Both the position numbers and the translations under genes were made by a program. From assembly GCA_947625515.1 (NCBI GenBank), contig CANQOO010000003.1, positions 62,001 to 126,000 on the forward strand: 64,000 nucleotides of DNA, written 5' to 3'. The notes under the pieces were generated by a model. The model was not told where the DNA came from and did not search any database. It worked only from the letters and a program-made list of their open reading frames with translations. This document shows positions 19,104 to 28,361 of this stretch, piece after piece (positions within the stretch are counted from its first letter, which is position 1; the number at the start of each line of letters is the position of its first letter). The stretch is from an uncultured Clostridia bacterium. Lineage in GTDB: Bacteria > Bacillota > Clostridia > Christensenellales > UBA1242.

Positions 19104-20873
19104 TTATGCTGCCAAACTTTTTGCAACTGCTGTGAGGTTGAGGTGAAGGGCAGGGCGGACGGCACGAGAAAGGCTCACATGAGATTCATGCCATAATCCG
19201 CCGGACGCTCCCAGATCGCAGGCACCGAGAGAATCGTCCCAGTAGGCAGAGCGGAGCCAGGAATAGTTGAATGTAACGGAGTCATTATTTGAGCCAAACT
19301 TGCCTAAAACACTCTGATCCATATTCATAAGTTTTCTTTGATTGGTTGTTGTTTCCCAGATACCTATGTGGCTATTGTCATATCCTGTTTCGGTTAGGGA
19401 TGGCAGCCAAAGATAATCATCTTTCCAAGCGTCATTGCCTTCTTGGCCAGCATAGTTGTATTTTCCATAAAAGCCATTTACAGTCGTTTCATTCCACCAG
19501 TTCTCATTTGCTAAGTCGTATTCATATGAAAGTTGATTTTTTGCACTTTGGCCATCTTTTTGCCATGAAACATGCTCTGGCGTCACAAAGAATTCTGTCA
19601 AGCCAGATTGTTCCATTGTGAAAAGTGCAAAGACATTATTTTTGCTCTGTTCGGCTGTCGCTGTCTCAGTTCCAGATGTGGCATAGACTCCGCCGTTGTT
19701 AAGCATAACTGCTCTGATATAAGATGTTCCATACATATTGGTTGGATATTTCTCCATTTCGTGATCGGCAAGCCAGTTTGCTGACCAGTCGCTGTAAAGC
19801 GCACCATTTAAGAAACCATAATATTCGCCTTCATCTCTTTTTCTGCTTGACCAAACGTCTTGTTGGTTGTCCGCAAGCCAGAGGGTGAGGATGTCGTTTT
19901 CTTGGTCGTCTTGGGAAAGATAGACTGGCGTCCAAAAAAGTCCGCCCAGTTCAATGAGTATTTCCGCGTCATAACTATCTGCTAAGACGGAATAATCAAT
20001 GTTAGAATAATCGGAGTTTTTCAATGCAGAATAATTTGCATTTGCAGATGAATAGTTGCTTGCACTTGCGGCGTTCACTTTGTTGTAGTTTGCAATCATG
20101 TCCGTAGAGGTGGCTTTATTTTTTGCCAAGGTGTCAATTGCGGTCATGTTGGAAACATTGACATTCGCATCGCCAGAAATTTGTTGCAGAATTTTGTTCA
20201 TGCTGTATGCATCAAAAGTTTTGGAAGATTCTTCAAACAGTTCCCCGATAGGTCTTTCCGCCAAACTGTCGAGGAAAATTGTGCATTCGCCGGTGCCTGT
20301 GGCGTTCTTGATTGGATTGGCAAGGGAGATTCGGATGCCAATGTCGAGGACAGATTTAACATTGCCTTGCGGGGTGACATAAAGATTTTTTAGGGACGAC
20401 CTTGTGCAAAGGTATTGTGCCGTTGTCCCGTCCGTTGTGGTGCGGGTGGAGGAAGAATATTTGACTTGCAAGTTGGATGCAGTGTCAAACCCAGTCAGTT
20501 GCAATTTGACGCCAAAGCCGTCAGTGTCGCTGAGGTTTTGGATTGTGTAGTGAAATTCAACATATGCGTCCGGAGTTTTGAGGGTGATATCTGGCGTTTC
20601 CTTAAACTTCTGCTCTGTGCCGGTCGGTTCTCCGCCAGAAAATGTTAGGTCTTGCCCAAGGCTTGTTGCGTTTCCAGTGGCAGGGCCATCTCCACTGCCA
20701 GTCACATATTCGCCTGAGATAATTGCATGCACATTTCTTGCGGTGTAGGTGACATTGAACGATGCGTTCACATTTCCGCTAAGAGCCGCCCATGTTATTC
20801 CAACCGAGGCACCAACCACCACCAAGACCATGGCAAGGCTGCCAATGATTTTCCAAAATCTTTTCTTTTTCAT
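19104..20873 (-). CDS. secreted/surface protein with C-terminal DUF6273-like domain
   Basis: Signal/anchor MKKKRFWKIIGSLAMVLVVVGASVGITWA; C-terminal YSWLRSA...AVRPALHLNL; SD GGAGGG before ATG at 20873. Confidence 0.75.
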   Translation of the reverse strand: MKKKRFWKIIGSLAMVLVVVGASVGITWAALSGNVNASFNVTYTARNVHAIISGEYVTGSGDGPATGNATSLGQDLTFSGGEPTGTEQKFKETPDITLKTPDAYVEFHYTIQNLSDTDGFGVKLQLTGFDTASNLQVKYSSSTRTTTDGTTAQYLCTRSSLKNLYVTPQGNVKSVLDIGIRISLANPIKNATGTGECTIFLDSLAERPIGELFEESSKTFDAYSMNKILQQISGDANVNVSNMTAIDTLAKNKATSTDMIANYNKVNAASASNYSSANANYSALKNSDYSNIDYSVLADSYDAEILIELGGLFWTPVYLSQDDQENDILTLWLADNQQDVWSSRKRDEGEYYGFLNGALYSDWSANWLADHEMEKYPTNMYGTSYIRAVMLNNGGVYATSGTETATAEQSKNNVFALFTMEQSGLTEFFVTPEHVSWQKDGQSAKNQLSYEYDLANENWWNETTVNGFYGKYNYAGQEGNDAWKDDYLWLPSLTETGYDNSHIGIWETTTNQRKLMNMDQSVLGKFGSNNDSVTFNYSWLRSAYWDDSLGACDLGASGGLWHESHVSLSRAVRPALHLNLTAVAKSLAA

Positions 20874-20977
20874 GTTCCCTCCAAGTGCGTTTAAGGTTAT
20901 CCACAATAGTATGAGAAAGTTTCTTCAAAAACAAAAAGAAATATCTCATATATATACTATGGCACATTATATTAAGC

Positions 20978-21009
20978 AGTATAGTTCGGGGGGGGGGGCT
21001 TTTTGTCAA
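20978..21009 (-). promoter_or_regulatory. Candidate phase-variable promoter: TTGACA - 20-nt spacer containing C11 - TATACT
   Basis: -35 at 21009-21004, G11 (plus strand) at 20988-20998, -10 at 20983-20978. Confidence 0.7.
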
Positions 21010-21275
21010 GCATTTTTTAAAAGTTTTTAAAAAAATTTAAAATTTTCCACATTTTTAAACCAAATTCTTTAAACTTATAGGTCAATCTTTCATTTTAGAG
21101 CCAAATTTTTCAACTATTAAGCCAATCTTTCATTTTTGAGTTACCAAAAATTTTATGCCTGACTTTCAACTCTAATCTTTTTGCCAAGTTTTCTAACTTT
21201 TCATTTTCTCAAGTTTTCTAACTTTTCTTTTTCTGCCAAGTTTTTCAATTTCTATGCCGCAGGTTCTTTTTTTTC

Positions 21276-21576
21276 AACAAAAAAACAAGGGGCGACCTTG
21301 CTTTTCTGATGCTGGGCGGATGCTTTGTTGCAAAATGACCGACTGCCTTGAAAGTGCCAAACTCCACCAAAGCTTCCTTATGGCACATCAACTGGTTCCC
21401 TTAGTGATGCTTCCGTCAGGACCTGACACGATTCGGAAAGGCCGATTGCACAAGACCTTGATTTCATCGCCTGGAACTTTCACACATATTCAACCAAATT
21501 GCACCGAGGCAACTGTTCGACCCTGCTGTAGCGGATTGCAGGTGACAGGGCACCGCTATCTCCCCGTCTAGCCCAG
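21276..21576 (-). ncRNA. ffs: Signal recognition particle RNA (large Bacillota type)
   Basis: Minus strand contains GGGCTAGACGGGGAGATAGCGGTGCCCTGTCACCTGCAATCCGCTACAGCAGGG and GTGTCAGGTCCTGACGGAAGCATCACTAAG; promoter TTGACA-17-TATAAT (21612-21584); ends in CAAGG-TCGCC-CCTTG plus T-run. Confidence 0.93.
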
Positions 21577-21752
21577 TGTGAATATTATAAACAAATCCCA
21601 TCCTTTTGTCAAGCAAATTCACCAAAAAACCTTGGCAACATGGCGACATGGCTTCTTGCCAGGCGGCTTCGACAAAAACGGCAAATTTGTGACAGATTTT
21701 CCTTCGCTTTGGGGCAAGGCGGTGCATAGATTTACATTGCAAGGAGTGCAAT

Positions 21753-22661
21753 ATGTTGGAGAAAATTTTGCCGGACAAGATGCATCGGATTTTGATGGAA
21801 AAGGTCAACATGAAGGCTGTCAACGAAATTCGCCTGCGTGCGGACAAGCCCGTTGGGGTGAACGTGAGCGGAAAGATGTTTTTCTTGTGCGAAAATGGCG
21901 TGACAAGCAACTTGAAACAGGCCCTCTATGCCAGCAAAATAATGATTGAGGACGTGATTTTCCGTGCCAGTGAATGCTCCATCTATTCCGTGAACGAGCA
22001 AATTAAGAAGGGCTTCATTGTCACTGACGAGGGTGTGCGAATTGGCATAGGCGGAAATTTGGTGGACGAGAACGGGCATATCAAAACCATGACAAATTTC
22101 TGCTCTTGCAACATTCGCGTGCCACATGTGGTGAGAAATTGCAGCCTGAGTGCATATCCGTTTTTGGTGGACGAGGACGGCGTGCAGAACACCCTGATTG
22201 TCAGTCCGCCCGGCTGCGGAAAAACCACTTTTTTGAGAGATTTTGTTTCGCAACTTTCGCAAAGAGGGCTGCCATACAACATTCTTCTTTTGGACGAGCG
22301 TGGCGAACTGGACTGCGGCATCGACTCGGCTTTCACCGACAAAATCGCTTTTTCCAGCAAGAAAATTGGCTTTGAAAATGGCATACGGTCACTCAGCCCC
22401 GACATCATCGTGACTGACGAATTGGGGCAGGAGGACGACATTGCCGCGGTGAGATATGCCTGCACGTGCGGCGTGCGACTGCTTGCATCCACTCACGCCG
22501 AAAGCATGGAAGTTTTCTGCAAAAAACCACTTTTTGAACAAGTCTTGAAGGAAAAAATTTTCAAGCGATTTGTCCTTCTTTCCAAACGCAACGGACCCGG
22601 CACACTTGAAGGAATTTACAACGAAAATCTGTCTCGCGTATATTTCCCAAACGGCAGATAA
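21753..22661 (+). CDS. spoIIIAA: stage III sporulation protein AA (ATPase)
   Basis: VNEIRLRADKPVGV; Walker A SPPGCGKTTFLRDF; first gene of the spoIIIA cluster. Confidence 0.93.
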   Translation: MLEKILPDKMHRILMEKVNMKAVNEIRLRADKPVGVNVSGKMFFLCENGVTSNLKQALYASKIMIEDVIFRASECSIYSVNEQIKKGFIVTDEGVRIGIGGNLVDENGHIKTMTNFCSCNIRVPHVVRNCSLSAYPFLVDEDGVQNTLIVSPPGCGKTTFLRDFVSQLSQRGLPYNILLLDERGELDCGIDSAFTDKIAFSSKKIGFENGIRSLSPDIIVTDELGQEDDIAAVRYACTCGVRLLASTHAESMEVFCKKPLFEQVLKEKIFKRFVLLSKRNGPGTLEGIYNENLSRVYFPNGR

Positions 22662-22988
22662 ACACGCTAAAATAATTGCTTTTAATTAAAAAAATATTCA
22701 ACTTTAATTAACAAAAAATATTGAGATAAATTGACGAAAAAAAATTGCATCAAACTAGCAGAATTATTGACTTAAATTAACAAAAAAATAGAGATAAGTT
22801 GATAAAAATTTTGCATAAAACTAGCAAAAATTTTGACTTAAATTAACAAAAAAATATTGACTTAAAAATTAGCGAAAAAATTATTACATCAAATAAACAA
22901 AAAAAACAACTTTAAATTTTCGATAATTTTTAAAAAATTTTTACATTTAGTTAATAGCTTTAAGTTATCATTTAAAAAATTCTTAGTC

Positions 22989-23495
22989 TTGGAGGTGGCA
23001 GTGAAATATCTTTTAATTCTCTTTGTTTTTGTGATTTGTGTGGGCGTGGGCTATTTCTTTTCGACAAAATATATGAAGAGAAAAAAGTTTTTTGCTTCGC
23101 TTATTTCGCTGGCGGACAAACTGTCGCTGGAAATAAATTTCTCACGCGAGCGGCTGAAAGTTCTGCTGGAAAATTTTGATGCAAACTCCAAAAAACATTT
23201 GCTTGGCATTGATGAAAATTTCGTGCGATATCTTGACAGGAATTGCGAGTTGACCAACGACGAAATTTTCAAGAATGTCAATTGTCTTAAACCCGATGAG
23301 CGAGATTTGATTTTGCTTTTTTTCAAAACGTTGGGACGAAGCGACGTTGAAAATCAGACAAAAGAAATTCAGACGTTTGTCTCTCGCTTTGGTGAGATTA
23401 AGAAGAAGTGTGACGAAGAGCAAAAGAAATATGGCTCTCTCTCCATCAAACTGGGTGTCGTGGCGGGGCTTTTCTTTGCCATTGTGATGATTTGA
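22989..23495 (+). CDS. spoIIIAB: stage III sporulation protein AB
   Basis: N-terminal TM, position in operon, C-terminal TM. Confidence 0.8.
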   Translation: MEVAVKYLLILFVFVICVGVGYFFSTKYMKRKKFFASLISLADKLSLEINFSRERLKVLLENFDANSKKHLLGIDENFVRYLDRNCELTNDEIFKNVNCLKPDERDLILLFFKTLGRSDVENQTKEIQTFVSRFGEIKKKCDEEQKKYGSLSIKLGVVAGLFFAIVMI

Positions 23496-23665
23496 TTAAA
23501 AAAATTTTCCCGGCATTTTTCAAGAAATTTTTGCCATATTTTTGTCGTAATTTTTACTAAATTTTTTAGATATTTTTGTCATAATTTTTACTGTAATCTT
23601 AGCCATATTTTTCAATATTTTTTTCTAAATTTTCAATTATTTTGCATGAAGGGAGGTGATGCAAA

Positions 23666-23875
23666 TTGGAAGTTGAAATTATTTTCAAGATTGCTGCGAT
23701 TGGCATCTTGACCGCGGTGGTTGGGCAAATTTTGCGGAACAGCGGCAAGGAAGACATCTCCACGCTGGCGACACTTGCGGGCGTGGTGATTGTGCTGTTT
23801 ATGGTGCTTTCCATGATTGGGGATTTGTTCTCTTCCATTCGCACCATGTTCAACTTTGCCGTTTCGTTCAGATAG
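23666..23875 (+). CDS. spoIIIAC: stage III sporulation protein AC
   Basis: IFKIAAIGILTAVVGQILRNSGKED. Confidence 0.92.
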   Translation: MEVEIIFKIAAIGILTAVVGQILRNSGKEDISTLATLAGVVIVLFMVLSMIGDLFSSIRTMFNFAVSFR

Positions 23876-23986
23876 GTTGATGTAGATGAAGAATTGTTGC
23901 GAAAGTTGACGGTTGCCGAAATATTTTGCGTTAAAATTGCAAGAAAATTTTTGCATTTTATTTTCGCGAAACCTCGTCTTGAAAGG

Positions 23987-24082
23987 CTAGAAAATTTCTG
24001 AAAACGAACTGAAAAAGTTAAAAATTTTCTGAAAAACAAACTCAAAAAGTTAGAAAATTTTTGAAAAACAAATTGAAAAAGG
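23987..24082. repeat. Degenerate ~32-bp tandem repeat (3 copies) between spoIIIAC and spoIIIAD
   Basis: ctagaaaatttctgaaaacgaactgaaaaagtt / aaaaattttctgaaaaacaaactcaaaaagtt / agaaaatttttgaaaaacaaattgaaaaagg. Confidence 0.75.
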
Positions 24083-24091
24083 AGGGCGGAT

Positions 24092-24484
24092 GTGGACACT
24101 CTATACAAAATTTTGGCTATTGCCGTTGTGACGTGTGTGGCGTGTCTGATTGTCAAGCCCGTCAGAGCGGATTTCGCGGTCATCATTTCCATTGTGGGCG
24201 GGATTTTGATTGTCATTTTCATGCTCTCATACATTTGCGATGTGTTTGAAGTTTTTCAGGGGATTTTTAAGACTTCGGGCATCAATTCTTCTCTCTATGC
24301 CATCATCTTCAAAATTATTGGTGTGGGATATTTGACGGAGTTCACCGCCAGCCTTTGCAATGACACTGGCAATCAAAGTTTGGGCGACAAGGTTTTGCTG
24401 GGCGGAAAAATCATCATTCTGGTCATGGCTCTTCCAATCGTGACCAGCATTTTGGACATCGTCATGCAGTTATTGCCAAAATGA
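24092..24484 (+). CDS. spoIIIAD: stage III sporulation protein AD
   Basis: Polytopic protein, operon position, EFTASLCNDTGN motif. Confidence 0.92.
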   Translation: MDTLYKILAIAVVTCVACLIVKPVRADFAVIISIVGGILIVIFMLSYICDVFEVFQGIFKTSGINSSLYAIIFKIIGVGYLTEFTASLCNDTGNQSLGDKVLLGGKIIILVMALPIVTSILDIVMQLLPK

Positions 24485-25752
24485 TGCCAGGTTGTTTTCG
24501 CAAGCGGGAGTCCTCCAAAAAGAAGAGCCTTTGGAGGCGAGTTTGCCCGATTGTTGTCATATTTTTCATCTTTCTGTCCTGTTTTTACGGCAGATTTGAC
24601 ATCACCCAGGGTTTTGTGCCAAATGTTGCCTACGCTGACAGCGGGCAGATGCAGGATTTGGAGCAAGAACTGGAAGATGAAGTGCAAAATCAAATTTCCA
24701 ATCTCGATTTTTCGGACGTTGAGGCGGTGATTGAAAAACTTTCCACTTCGGCGAAAAAACTTTTTGACTCCGGCTCGTTTGGGGCGAAACTTGAAAGTGT
24801 CATTTCGGGCGAATATGCCGAAAATTCCACTTCATTTTTTTCGGCAGTGATGTCCATTTTTGTGGAAGGATTTAAATCCTTTTTGCCAATCATCGCCAGC
24901 ATAATTTCCATTGCCATTCTTGGTGGCATGGTGTCAAATTTAAAGCCCGCCACAAACGGAAAGTCAATCGGAAACATCGTCCATTTTGTCACATATGGAG
25001 TGGTGATTATTTTCCTTGGGGCAACGCTGGTGCAACTGATTGGTGTCACCACCTCAACACTGACAAATGTCAAGTCTATGTTTGACGCCATCTTTCCCAT
25101 TCTTCTCACACTTCTCACGGCGGTGGGCGGCTCCGTTTCGGTGGGCATCTATCAGCCCGCGATTGCACTTTTGTCAAACGTTTTTATTCTTCTCATCACC
25201 TATGTTCTGCTGCCGCTTTTCATCTTCTCAATCGTCTTTTCCATTGTTGGGAATCTCTCAAACAATGTCCGCCTAGACAAATTTGTTGCTTTTCTTCAAT
25301 CTGCTTTCAAGTGGACAATCGGGCTGTGTTTCACCATTTTTCTGGGCTTTGTTTCCATTCAGGGCGTGATGGCAGGGGCGGTGGATGGGCTTTCCATTCG
25401 CACGGCAAAATATGCCATCAAAAGTTATGTCCCGATTGTGGGCGGATATGTGTCTGACGGGCTTTCCATTGTCATGGCAAGCAGCATGCTCATCAAAAAC
25501 GCTGTGGGCGGAGTGGGGCTGTTCCTGTTGCTTGTCACCATTCTTTCGCCGGTGATTAACCTTGTGCTTTTCATGCTCTCGCTCAAATTTATGGCAGGCA
25601 TAATCGAGCCAATCGGCGACCACAAAATCGCCAATTTTGTGGGGGACATCTCAAAAAGCATGAGCCTTTTGGTGGCACTTCTTGTTGCGGTGGCGTTTAT
25701 GTATCTTGTGCTGACCGGGCTGATTATGTGTTCCGCAAATTTGGTGATTTAA
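24481..25752 (+). CDS. spoIIIAE: stage III sporulation protein AE
   Basis: Large polytopic protein, operon position, ATGA overlap with spoIIIAD. Confidence 0.92.
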   Translation: MMPGCFRKRESSKKKSLWRRVCPIVVIFFIFLSCFYGRFDITQGFVPNVAYADSGQMQDLEQELEDEVQNQISNLDFSDVEAVIEKLSTSAKKLFDSGSFGAKLESVISGEYAENSTSFFSAVMSIFVEGFKSFLPIIASIISIAILGGMVSNLKPATNGKSIGNIVHFVTYGVVIIFLGATLVQLIGVTTSTLTNVKSMFDAIFPILLTLLTAVGGSVSVGIYQPAIALLSNVFILLITYVLLPLFIFSIVFSIVGNLSNNVRLDKFVAFLQSAFKWTIGLCFTIFLGFVSIQGVMAGAVDGLSIRTAKYAIKSYVPIVGGYVSDGLSIVMASSMLIKNAVGGVGLFLLLVTILSPVINLVLFMLSLKFMAGIIEPIGDHKIANFVGDISKSMSLLVALLVAVAFMYLVLTGLIMCSANLVI

Positions 25753-25919
25753 CTTCCCGCAATCTTAATGAAGTTTCACGATAAAGTTTTTATGAAGTTA
25801 ACGATAAAGTTTTTGAAATTTGCCAAGCGTCGTGAAACAGTTTGGAAAATTTGCCAGCGGAAAATTTTTGAGAATTTAAGCGGCGGAAAAAGTGTGAAAG
25901 CATTAAAAGGAGGGGGAAG

Positions 25920-26417
25920 ATGTCTGGAATTTCTGCATGGCTTTTGTCGATTGCCTGCGTGGTGATTTTAAGCGTGCTTGCCGAGTTTGTTTTGCCTGAG
26001 GGGCAGATTAACAAATACACAAAAGTCATCTTTTCGTTTGTCATCCTGCTGGTGATAATCATGCCGCTTCCTTCCCTTTTTGGCAAAGAGTTTAAGTTTG
26101 AAAACTTCCTTGGCACGGGCGACGCGTCCATTCAGGAAAATTATTTATATCAGCTGAACATCAACAAAATTTCCGCCGTGACGGAGGACATTTCCGAGCA
26201 GATTGAAAAGGTGGGCATCCGAGGTGTGAAAATTTCCATCAACGCCGATGTGCTGACCGACAAAATGGAAATTTTTGCCGTGCAGGTGGATGTGCGGGAA
26301 ATTGAATATGCCGAAAATTGCGAGAGTAAAGATATTGTGAAGGCGAAAATGAAAATCTGCGACATAATCTCTGGCTTCGACCTTCTTAAAACAACGCCGG
26401 TGCATTTTAAAGAATGA
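25920..26417 (+). CDS. spoIIIAF: stage III sporulation protein AF
   Basis: N-terminal TM hairpin LAEFVLPEGQINKYTKVIFSFVILLVI; operon position. Confidence 0.88.
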   Translation: MSGISAWLLSIACVVILSVLAEFVLPEGQINKYTKVIFSFVILLVIIMPLPSLFGKEFKFENFLGTGDASIQENYLYQLNINKISAVTEDISEQIEKVGIRGVKISINADVLTDKMEIFAVQVDVREIEYAENCESKDIVKAKMKICDIISGFDLLKTTPVHFKE

Positions 26418-26578
26418 ACAGCAGCGGATGAAAAATTGAACATTAAATGAAATGGGGCAAATTTTAACAAAAATTTGTGATGTGAAAATTATGAAGAAGA
26501 ATTGTTGTAAAAAAACTCAAAAAAATTATAAAAAGATTGATAAATTTGTGAAGAAAATTGTCGAAAAGGGGGTTTGAA

Positions 26579-27091
26579 ATGTCCAAAATTAAAGAGATGT
26601 GGCAAAAACTAAGAAAAATCAAGCACATCCACATCATTGTGGCGATGGTTGCGGCACTACTGCTCTGCGTCATCTATTTTTCTTTTCTTTCTTCGCCAAA
26701 AACTGACAAAAAAGAGGAGAATACGAGTGTCACTTTTTCCTCTTCGGAAGAATATGTAGGCTGGCTGGAAAATAAACTTAATAATGTCTTGTCCCAAATT
26801 TCTGGTGCGGGCAAGGTGAGCACAATCGTCACTTTGGAGAGCGGCTTCACCTATGACTACGCCAAAGAGGTTGAGACGCGTTCCAGCACTGCCGGGGATG
26901 TGGTCATCACGTCCGAAACTGTCATCTTAGTGAATGGCGAGCCGGTGGTGGTGAAAGAGTGGTTCCCGGTGATTCGGGGCGTAGTGATTGTTTCCAGCGG
27001 GGCGAACGATTTTGGGGTGAAGATGAAAATGCTGGATGCGGTCATGACTGTGCTGGAAATTGAGCAGGAGAGCATCACCATTCTTTCGTGA
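26579..27091 (+). CDS. spoIIIAG: stage III sporulation protein AG
   Basis: Single TM, LNNVLSQISGAGKVSTIVTLESG. Confidence 0.9.
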   Translation: MSKIKEMWQKLRKIKHIHIIVAMVAALLLCVIYFSFLSSPKTDKKEENTSVTFSSSEEYVGWLENKLNNVLSQISGAGKVSTIVTLESGFTYDYAKEVETRSSTAGDVVITSETVILVNGEPVVVKEWFPVIRGVVIVSSGANDFGVKMKMLDAVMTVLEIEQESITILS

Positions 27092-27667
27092 CAAAACATA
27101 TGAAAAAGCGGCACAACTCACTTCTTGCGTAGCGAACTATGGCAAGTGTGGCACAACTCACTTTTTTTCGCATCGAAATGGCAAATGCAGGCAGGGAGGC
27201 CGCAGAACAGAACGCGATGAAAAAGCGGGATGTTTCAAAGTTTCACTTTTTAAGAACGCAAAAAGAAGTGGCAAAAAATTCCACTCACGCACACTTTTCG
27301 ACAAAATTCATTTGGCAAAACACTTCTATACATTCAAAAGTTGACATAGTTTAATCTGGACAAGCACATAAGAAGTGACGCGAAAAAAAGCGAGCAGCTC
27401 CAAAGAAAAAATCGAAAAAATTGCTTAGAAATTTGCTCCGCAGGATAAAGAGCGAAACAATTTACTCTAATCAGACCAAATTCAAAGCGAACAAGAGAAA
27501 CTAAGGATGGAAAAACTTCTTCGCATAAGAAGTGCAATACGGAAATGAAGAACTTCTTCTCAAAAGAGATGGAAGAAAGGTAAGAGACACCTCTTCGCAA
27601 ACAAAAACACAAGACGATGGCAGAAGTTTGTCAAAAATTTTGGCGGGATGCCGCAAAGGAGTAAACC

Positions 27668-28135
27668 ATGAAAAAAAGAACAAAAATCATCATTCTCACA
27701 CTTATGATTGTGCTGCTTGGCGTGACGGGCTATCTTAACATTGCACTCAACAACAACATTCAGCAAACAAACACCACTGTGACAGCCGGAACATATTTCT
27801 CCACCTATCGCACCAGCCGCGAAAGCACTCGCAACCAGCAAAAACTTTATTATGACAGCATCATTGAAAGCGGCGACCCAAACGATGCAGCTGTTGTCAA
27901 CGCCATTCAGGCTCGTCAAGAGTTGATTGAACGCATGGACAAAGAAGTGACCTGCGAAGGGCTGATTAAACTGCTTGGATTTTCTGACTGCGTCATCGCA
28001 CTTTCGGACAACAAGGTGAACGTTGTTGTACAGGCGGAGGATTTGACCGACCTTGAAGTTGCAAACATCTGCTCCACCGTGATTGACCAACTTGGCGTGC
28101 AACTGAGAAATATTGTCATAATTTATGCCGACTAA
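27668..28135 (+). CDS. spoIIIAH: stage III sporulation protein AH
   Basis: N-terminal TM plus C-terminal ring-building-like domain; operon position. Confidence 0.85.
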   Translation: MKKRTKIIILTLMIVLLGVTGYLNIALNNNIQQTNTTVTAGTYFSTYRTSRESTRNQQKLYYDSIIESGDPNDAAVVNAIQARQELIERMDKEVTCEGLIKLLGFSDCVIALSDNKVNVVVQAEDLTDLEVANICSTVIDQLGVQLRNIVIIYAD

Positions 28136-28361
28136 GTTTTCGCATATTTTATGCCACTCAGTTTGCAATAATAATGCGATGAAAATGTGCTGATGAATTT
28201 CAACTTAATGCCGAATCATATTTATTAAGATTAGTTTGTGAATTTGTGCCGATTAATTTGCAAAATGTGTTTTGAATGTGCTAAAATGAAATTGCTTATG
28301 AAAAGTTTTGGCAATTTCCCGCAAAAATTGGGAGCCGAAACCAAAGCACAAGGAGAAATTT

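Follow-up and report, generated by a model that had tools for sequence, protein, structure and literature searches.

On the minus strand of the stretch of DNA analysed here (the window, 64 kb in full), a protein-coding gene is preceded by a promoter-like sequence in which a run of eleven C residues separates the -35 and -10 elements. The features of the locus are as follows, in the direction of transcription:

21584..21612, minus strand: perfect TTGACA-N17-TATAAT promoter of the SRP RNA gene, seen in the sequence and used as an internal reference for a normal spacer
21278..21300, minus strand: terminator-like hairpin with a T run (z = -3.4), insulating the gene from the upstream SRP RNA promoter
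21010..21060, minus strand: A/T-rich stretch upstream of the -35, a possible UP element by analogy with the A/T-rich arms before the -35 in class A promoters (see below)
21004..21009, minus strand: -35 element TTGACA, from the sequence; TTGACA also stands 2-6 nt before the tract in 15 of the 35 tracts of the genome
20988..20998, minus strand: C11 homopolymer within the -35/-10 spacer, proposed to be the slippage switch, from the sequence and from genome and paralogue comparison
20978..20983, minus strand: -10 element TATACT at a spacer of 20 nt, identical in all four close paralogues
20966..20971, minus strand: second TATAAT, 32 nt from TTGACA and with no usable -35, probably an initiation region and not a -10
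20877..20882, minus strand: ribosome-binding site GGAGGG, from the sequence
19104..20873, minus strand: gene under the putative switch, encoding a 589-aa protein with a hydrophobic N-terminus and a DUF6273-like C-terminal part; more than 20 paralogous genes in the genome
20784..20864, minus strand: hydrophobic segment at the N-terminus (aa 4-30), a signal peptide or anchor, modelled as a helix at aa 3-29 in an otherwise poor model
19161..19253, minus strand: hypervariable C-terminal patch, aa 541-571, defined by comparison of paralogues

The promoter reads TTGACA-N5-C11-N4-TATACT, and its 20-nt spacer (21003-20984) consists of AAAAG, C11 and GAAC. This is exactly the arrangement given in the initial annotation, which had placed the run wholly inside the spacer. 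The -10 ends 104 nt (about 105) before the ATG at 20873, in agreement with the earlier estimate of about 100 nt, and the ATG stands behind GGAGGG. A TGn extended -10 is absent. The run had also been called exceptional for its length. This is true of the window, where C11 is the only C/G run of at least 8 nt (0.43 8-mers expected) and no further C/G run of at least 6 nt was found, but not of the genome, whose C/G runs of 9-11 nt number 35. Degenerate A-rich repeats (AAAATGAAAGATTGGC.../GAAAAATTTGGC...) occupy window positions ~21060-21250, between the SRP RNA terminator and the tract promoter.

The gene for the large bacterial SRP RNA (Rfam RF01854, 147.8 bits) is located upstream on the same strand, at 21576-21312. 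Its transcript starts ~8 nt past its -10, and the same distance applied to the tract promoter puts the start at the second TATAAT (20971-20966). Since the calibrated start falls there, this hexamer is probably an initiation region rather than a -10. The opposite possibility is that transcription starts from the second TATAAT, or reaches the gene by read-through from the SRP RNA gene, and that the tract plays no part in regulation. Of the two hexamers, TATAAT is better than TATACT, either TATAAT or TATAGT is present in all four close paralogues, and a promoter matching the consensus at 12/12 positions lies on the same strand 600 nt upstream. However, a -35 for the second TATAAT would sit inside the C run, in other tract promoters of the genome the -10 directly follows the tract, and the calibration leads to a start at this hexamer. 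Read-through was rejected as well, being blocked by the terminator-like hairpin and T run. Transcription independent of the tract is, on this evidence, very unlikely. Because the SRP RNA gene ends in this way before the promoter is reached, the C11 promoter is the obvious promoter of the gene. On the plus strand, window positions 21753-28168 hold ORFs resembling the spoIIIA sporulation operon, recognised by eye, in a genome of ~1.1 Mb.

The gene product had been described as a signal-peptide protein with a DUF6273-like domain. The hydrophobic N-terminus was recovered, while the domain is reached only below threshold and through a paralogue. DUF6273 (PF19789) gave no match at E<=1 in the window protein, and a 75%-identical paralogue scored E=6e-4 and 20.1 bits, below the cut-off of 23.5; a tract-controlled protein of a sister species passes this cut-off (30.9 bits). 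A single-sequence AlphaFold model of the window protein was poor (pLDDT 31), a profile search of solved structures with the protein returned no match, and no relatives were found in viral contigs. The protein is presumably exposed at the cell surface. Its patch at aa 541-571, between WLRS and VRPALHLNL, has a pN/pS of ~0.8 among paralogues, against 0.1-0.45 around it and 0.2-0.4 over the remaining parts of the four closest, a pattern as for a diversifying ligand-binding or antigenic surface. A diversity-generating retroelement was considered for this hypervariable tail and rejected: its own genome (81% complete) gave no RVT_1 match, and the patch was not A-specific on inspection.

C/G tracts in the host genome

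The host genome was surveyed as 1.11 Mb in 11 contigs (81% complete), with expected run counts taken from a dinucleotide model fitted to the window. Runs of C or G reach at least 9 nt at 35 sites (26 of 9, 6 of 10 and 3 of 11), where ~1.3 are expected. Run lengths show an inverted spectrum: of the 126 C7 words in the genome, ~nine words, or ~5-6 runs, are left for lengths of 7-8 nt, against ~30 expected, and lengths of 9-11 are enriched. Fifteen of the 35 tracts, here called class A, stand between TTGACA, 2-6 nt upstream, and a -10, an arrangement expected 0.14 times (P = 3e-27). Class B includes 15 tracts (G9-10) and one G8, placed ~17 nt past the start codon in a second family of paralogues. 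The remaining tracts comprise two in intergenic positions upstream of small secreted proteins and three inside coding sequence.

The class B genes (on G000 C1, C2, C3, C5, C6, C8 and C9) form a family of 16 in which a G8-G10 tract follows the ATG; 6 of them are in frame and 10 are not. Adding or deleting a single G opens a frame of 244-469 aa in each of the 10, and such a mixture of states would be expected if frame-shift loci switched independently of one another. This family has the same C-terminal domain as the promoter-tract family of the window gene. The two intergenic runs, G9 and G11 at G000 C6:54437 and C6:55452, are ~260 nt upstream of secreted MTTKKKLLTAL... genes, lie in no recognisable promoter spacer and have no open frame. 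The three in-frame G9 runs, at G000 C10:13099, C6:10436 and C6:4294, are found in genes for a lipoprotein (immediately behind the lipobox Cys), a hydrolase-like protein and a multi-pass membrane protein, and are candidate frame-shift switches. A loss of mismatch repair was considered as the source of the many tracts and rejected, with MutS in 111/112 genomes of the genus and MutL intact in the host genome.

A comparison of the window protein with its own genome gave 43 matching stretches. The four closest genes share a GAAC/GCGT-TATACT promoter with C11, C10, C10 and C9, which results in spacers of 20, 19, 19 and 18 nt. In a four-copy promoter family, TTGACAAAAAT-Cn-GCTAAAAT (also written TTGACAAAAAT-Cn-GCTAAAATGGGGGTAGGTG), n is 9, 9, 10 and 11. 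Similar promoter pairs differed in tract length in 11/20 cases, the comparison being made between paralogues, which are non-independent observations, and sister species, with one genome per species. Identical flanks enclose unequal tracts of 9/9/9/11 in G048, 9/9/10 in G090 and 9 (eight times)/10/11 in G114, and promoter pairs with at least 98% identical flanks mostly share C9. Of three tractless paralogues that were examined, two have a TTGACA- or TTGCAA-type promoter whose spacer is 17-18 nt (by inspection).

Recurrence in the genus

The genus was searched with the pattern TTGACA-N2..6-C8+-N1..9-TANNNT, its G counterpart and a reversed-pattern control. The C form was found in 57 of 112 congeneric species and the G form in 35; the control gave zero matches across the same 112 species. 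The tract has the same position in 15 promoters of the genome, and the C or the G form is present in 62/112 congeneric species (a hand count of the union from two tables). Outside the genus, the C form was detected in ~16/375 sampled genomes of the order.

A chance homopolymer or an assembly artefact is a further alternative. Homopolymers are error-prone, and several contigs of the genome end at paralogous copies. Against this, the arrangement recurs in independent assemblies of 62 species with zero reversed-pattern matches, the coincidence of tract and TTGACA has P = 3e-27, and runs of 7-8 are depleted where runs of 9-11 are enriched. This explanation is already contradicted, and its probability is close to negligible.

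Across the genus, the products sampled downstream of these promoters are of surface type. In the host genome, 11/14 promoter-tract genes encode a secretion-like or hydrophobic N-terminus and 3/14 do not. The sister species G114 has thirteen G9-G11 promoters of the same architecture, of which 11 precede long N-terminally anchored ORFs and two run into a contig or locus end. Downstream proteins sampled across the genus include GLUG, InlB-type repeat (Flg_new), BspA-LRR, GBS Bsp-like and DUF6273 types. In a mixed-taxon set, hydrophobic or lipobox N-termini follow 70/130 tract promoters versus 9/32 ordinary promoters (P = 0.01). Open frames of more than 9000 aa with the same DUF6273-like domain, giant surface proteins, were seen at G000 C6 ~22836-23864 and G003 C6 ~33089.

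Spacer lengths and the proposed switch

Ordinary TTGACA/TATAAT promoters of the genome (n=46) have a spacer of 17-18 nt in 80% of cases, compared with 9% of the C-tract promoters (n=97, P = 2e-17) and 16% of the G-tract promoters (n=80). The spacers of tract promoters are bimodal, with modes at 15-16 and 19-20 in the C and G forms alike. Because the two orientations behave alike, an effect of length is favoured over a sequence-specific factor. A TGn extended -10 is found in 12/17 promoters of the long-spacer group versus 8/71, and may compensate for the long spacer. Tract length 9 is modal in both promoters and coding tracts, whatever the frame, which suggests a mutational equilibrium; poly-G tracts of C. 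jejuni tend to lengthen at 8-9 and to shorten at 10-11 (PMC4085013). The flanks then seem to be set so that a tract of 9 sits at the edge of the working range.

A different view of the same data is that the C/G run serves as a fixed element, either structural or bound by a protein, such as stiff A-like DNA or an operator, and that a change in length is not its purpose. Such an element fits the strong mode at 9 in promoter and coding tracts, the spacers of 15-16 and 19-20 instead of 17-18, if the tract could change the preferred spacing, and the association of the TGn motif with long spacers. It does not fit the copies with identical flanks and different tract lengths, the occurrence of the run as C or G on the coding strand with the same bimodality, or the presence of the same tract type inside coding sequence, where a frame shift is the sole possible effect. 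Moreover, the modal length needs no binding protein, because 9 is the length at which the bias of poly-G slippage in C. jejuni changes from insertion to deletion (PMC4085013). A fixed element is, overall, unlikely. The avoidance of 17-18 in consensus genomes could also reflect a different optimal length for tract promoters.

We consider with considerable confidence that C11 would act as a slipped-strand phase-variation switch, built into the core promoter of a gene for a predicted surface protein. Replication slippage (slipped-strand mispairing) at C11 would add or remove single C residues with mismatch repair (MutS and MutL) intact. The altered number of C residues would change the distance between TTGACA and TATACT, the strength of recognition by sigma-A and, in turn, transcription, with the promoter weak or off at C11 (20 nt) and on at C8-C9 (17-18 nt). 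Since ordinary spacers are 17-18 nt, C11 should be weak and the loss of 2-3 C should raise expression; the lack of a TGn motif likewise predicts a promoter that is weak or off at C11 and on at C8-C9. Judged from spacer lengths, the window promoter is probably OFF or weak at present. We infer that slippage is reversible within a clone and that transcription depends on tract length.

The phase-variable promoter put forward in the initial annotation is thus supported, as all of its computable predictions held (recurrence, tract-length differences, a sister family with coding tracts and a spacer norm of 17-18). The genus very probably switches surface proteins on and off by slippage in C/G runs, and the best reading of the sequence comparisons is that the window promoter would be part of a genus-wide contingency repertoire with transcriptional and translational switches. 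A more complete model, to which we give somewhat better than even chances, is a distributed contingency system in a genus with small genomes. Adhesin families would each carry a C/G run in the spacer, an equilibrium length of 9 would lead to spacers of 15-16 or 19-20 and leave most copies OFF or weak, a slip of 1-3 bases would turn one on, and a second family would use frame shifts for the same end.

Relation to known contingency systems

In the porA, opc and fetA promoters of Neisseria meningitidis, an unstable C or G homopolymer between the -35 and -10 alters the spacer and sigma-factor binding (PMC2791445, citing van der Ende 1995 and Sarkari 1994), and meningococcal homopolymers of at least 8 are predominantly variable (PMC5084427). 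Several characters of porA/opc/vlp-type promoters are found here: a repeat between the -35 and -10, a tract of at least 8 (C11), a length that varies with constant flanks in paralogues and sister species, and control of surface structures, as judged from N-termini and domain types. The porA, opc and fetA promoters likewise have a homopolymer in the spacer and serve surface proteins. Unlike these single genes of a proteobacterium, the tract promoters described here belong to paralogous families in a gut Clostridia genus, with up to 13-15 promoters per genome; their modal length puts the spacer off its optimum, and length-dependent expression is at this stage a prediction.

The vlp genes of Mycoplasma hyorhinis form a multigene surface lipoprotein family in which each promoter spacer has its own poly-A homopolymer and switches independently. 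A multigene surface family with a homopolymer in the promoter spacer of each member is common to both systems. In contrast to vlp, the tracts here consist of C or G, the organism lies outside the mollicutes and seems to have retained sporulation genes and mismatch repair, and a sister family uses translational frame switching. The latter family resembles the poly-G/C coding-tract contingency loci of Campylobacter, Helicobacter and Neisseria, with G8-G10 near the start codon and ON/OFF states set by the frame in 16 genes, but differs from them in that its C-terminal domain also occurs in the promoter-tract family to which the window gene belongs.

The best-known slipped-strand contingency loci are those of respiratory-tract pathogens, Campylobacter and Helicobacter. 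In the open-access literature searched, no paper dealt with homopolymer phase variation together with Clostridia metagenome-assembled genomes or Christensenellaceae. The mechanism is known; what is new relative to that literature is the setting in an uncultured gut Clostridia genus, the number of loci per genome, the off-optimum spacers and the combination of promoter and coding switches in two families that share a domain. If the proposal is true, gut Clostridia with reduced genomes have surface variation as large, per genome size, as mycoplasmas or meningococci, which would bear on strain tracking, phage and antibody escape, and colonisation models for uncultured commensals. The 35 tracts per genome can be typed together from existing metagenomic reads, so that the switch is directly testable.

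In a scan of named species genomes, the architecture was also present in Mucispirillum and a few other taxa. The Mucispirillum promoters (L144, L146, L152, L155, L157, L164, L172, L182 and L186) read TTGACA-C9-TATAAT, always with a 15-nt spacer, and stand before genes for secreted proteins or lipoproteins; they are apparently an independent occurrence of the same design.
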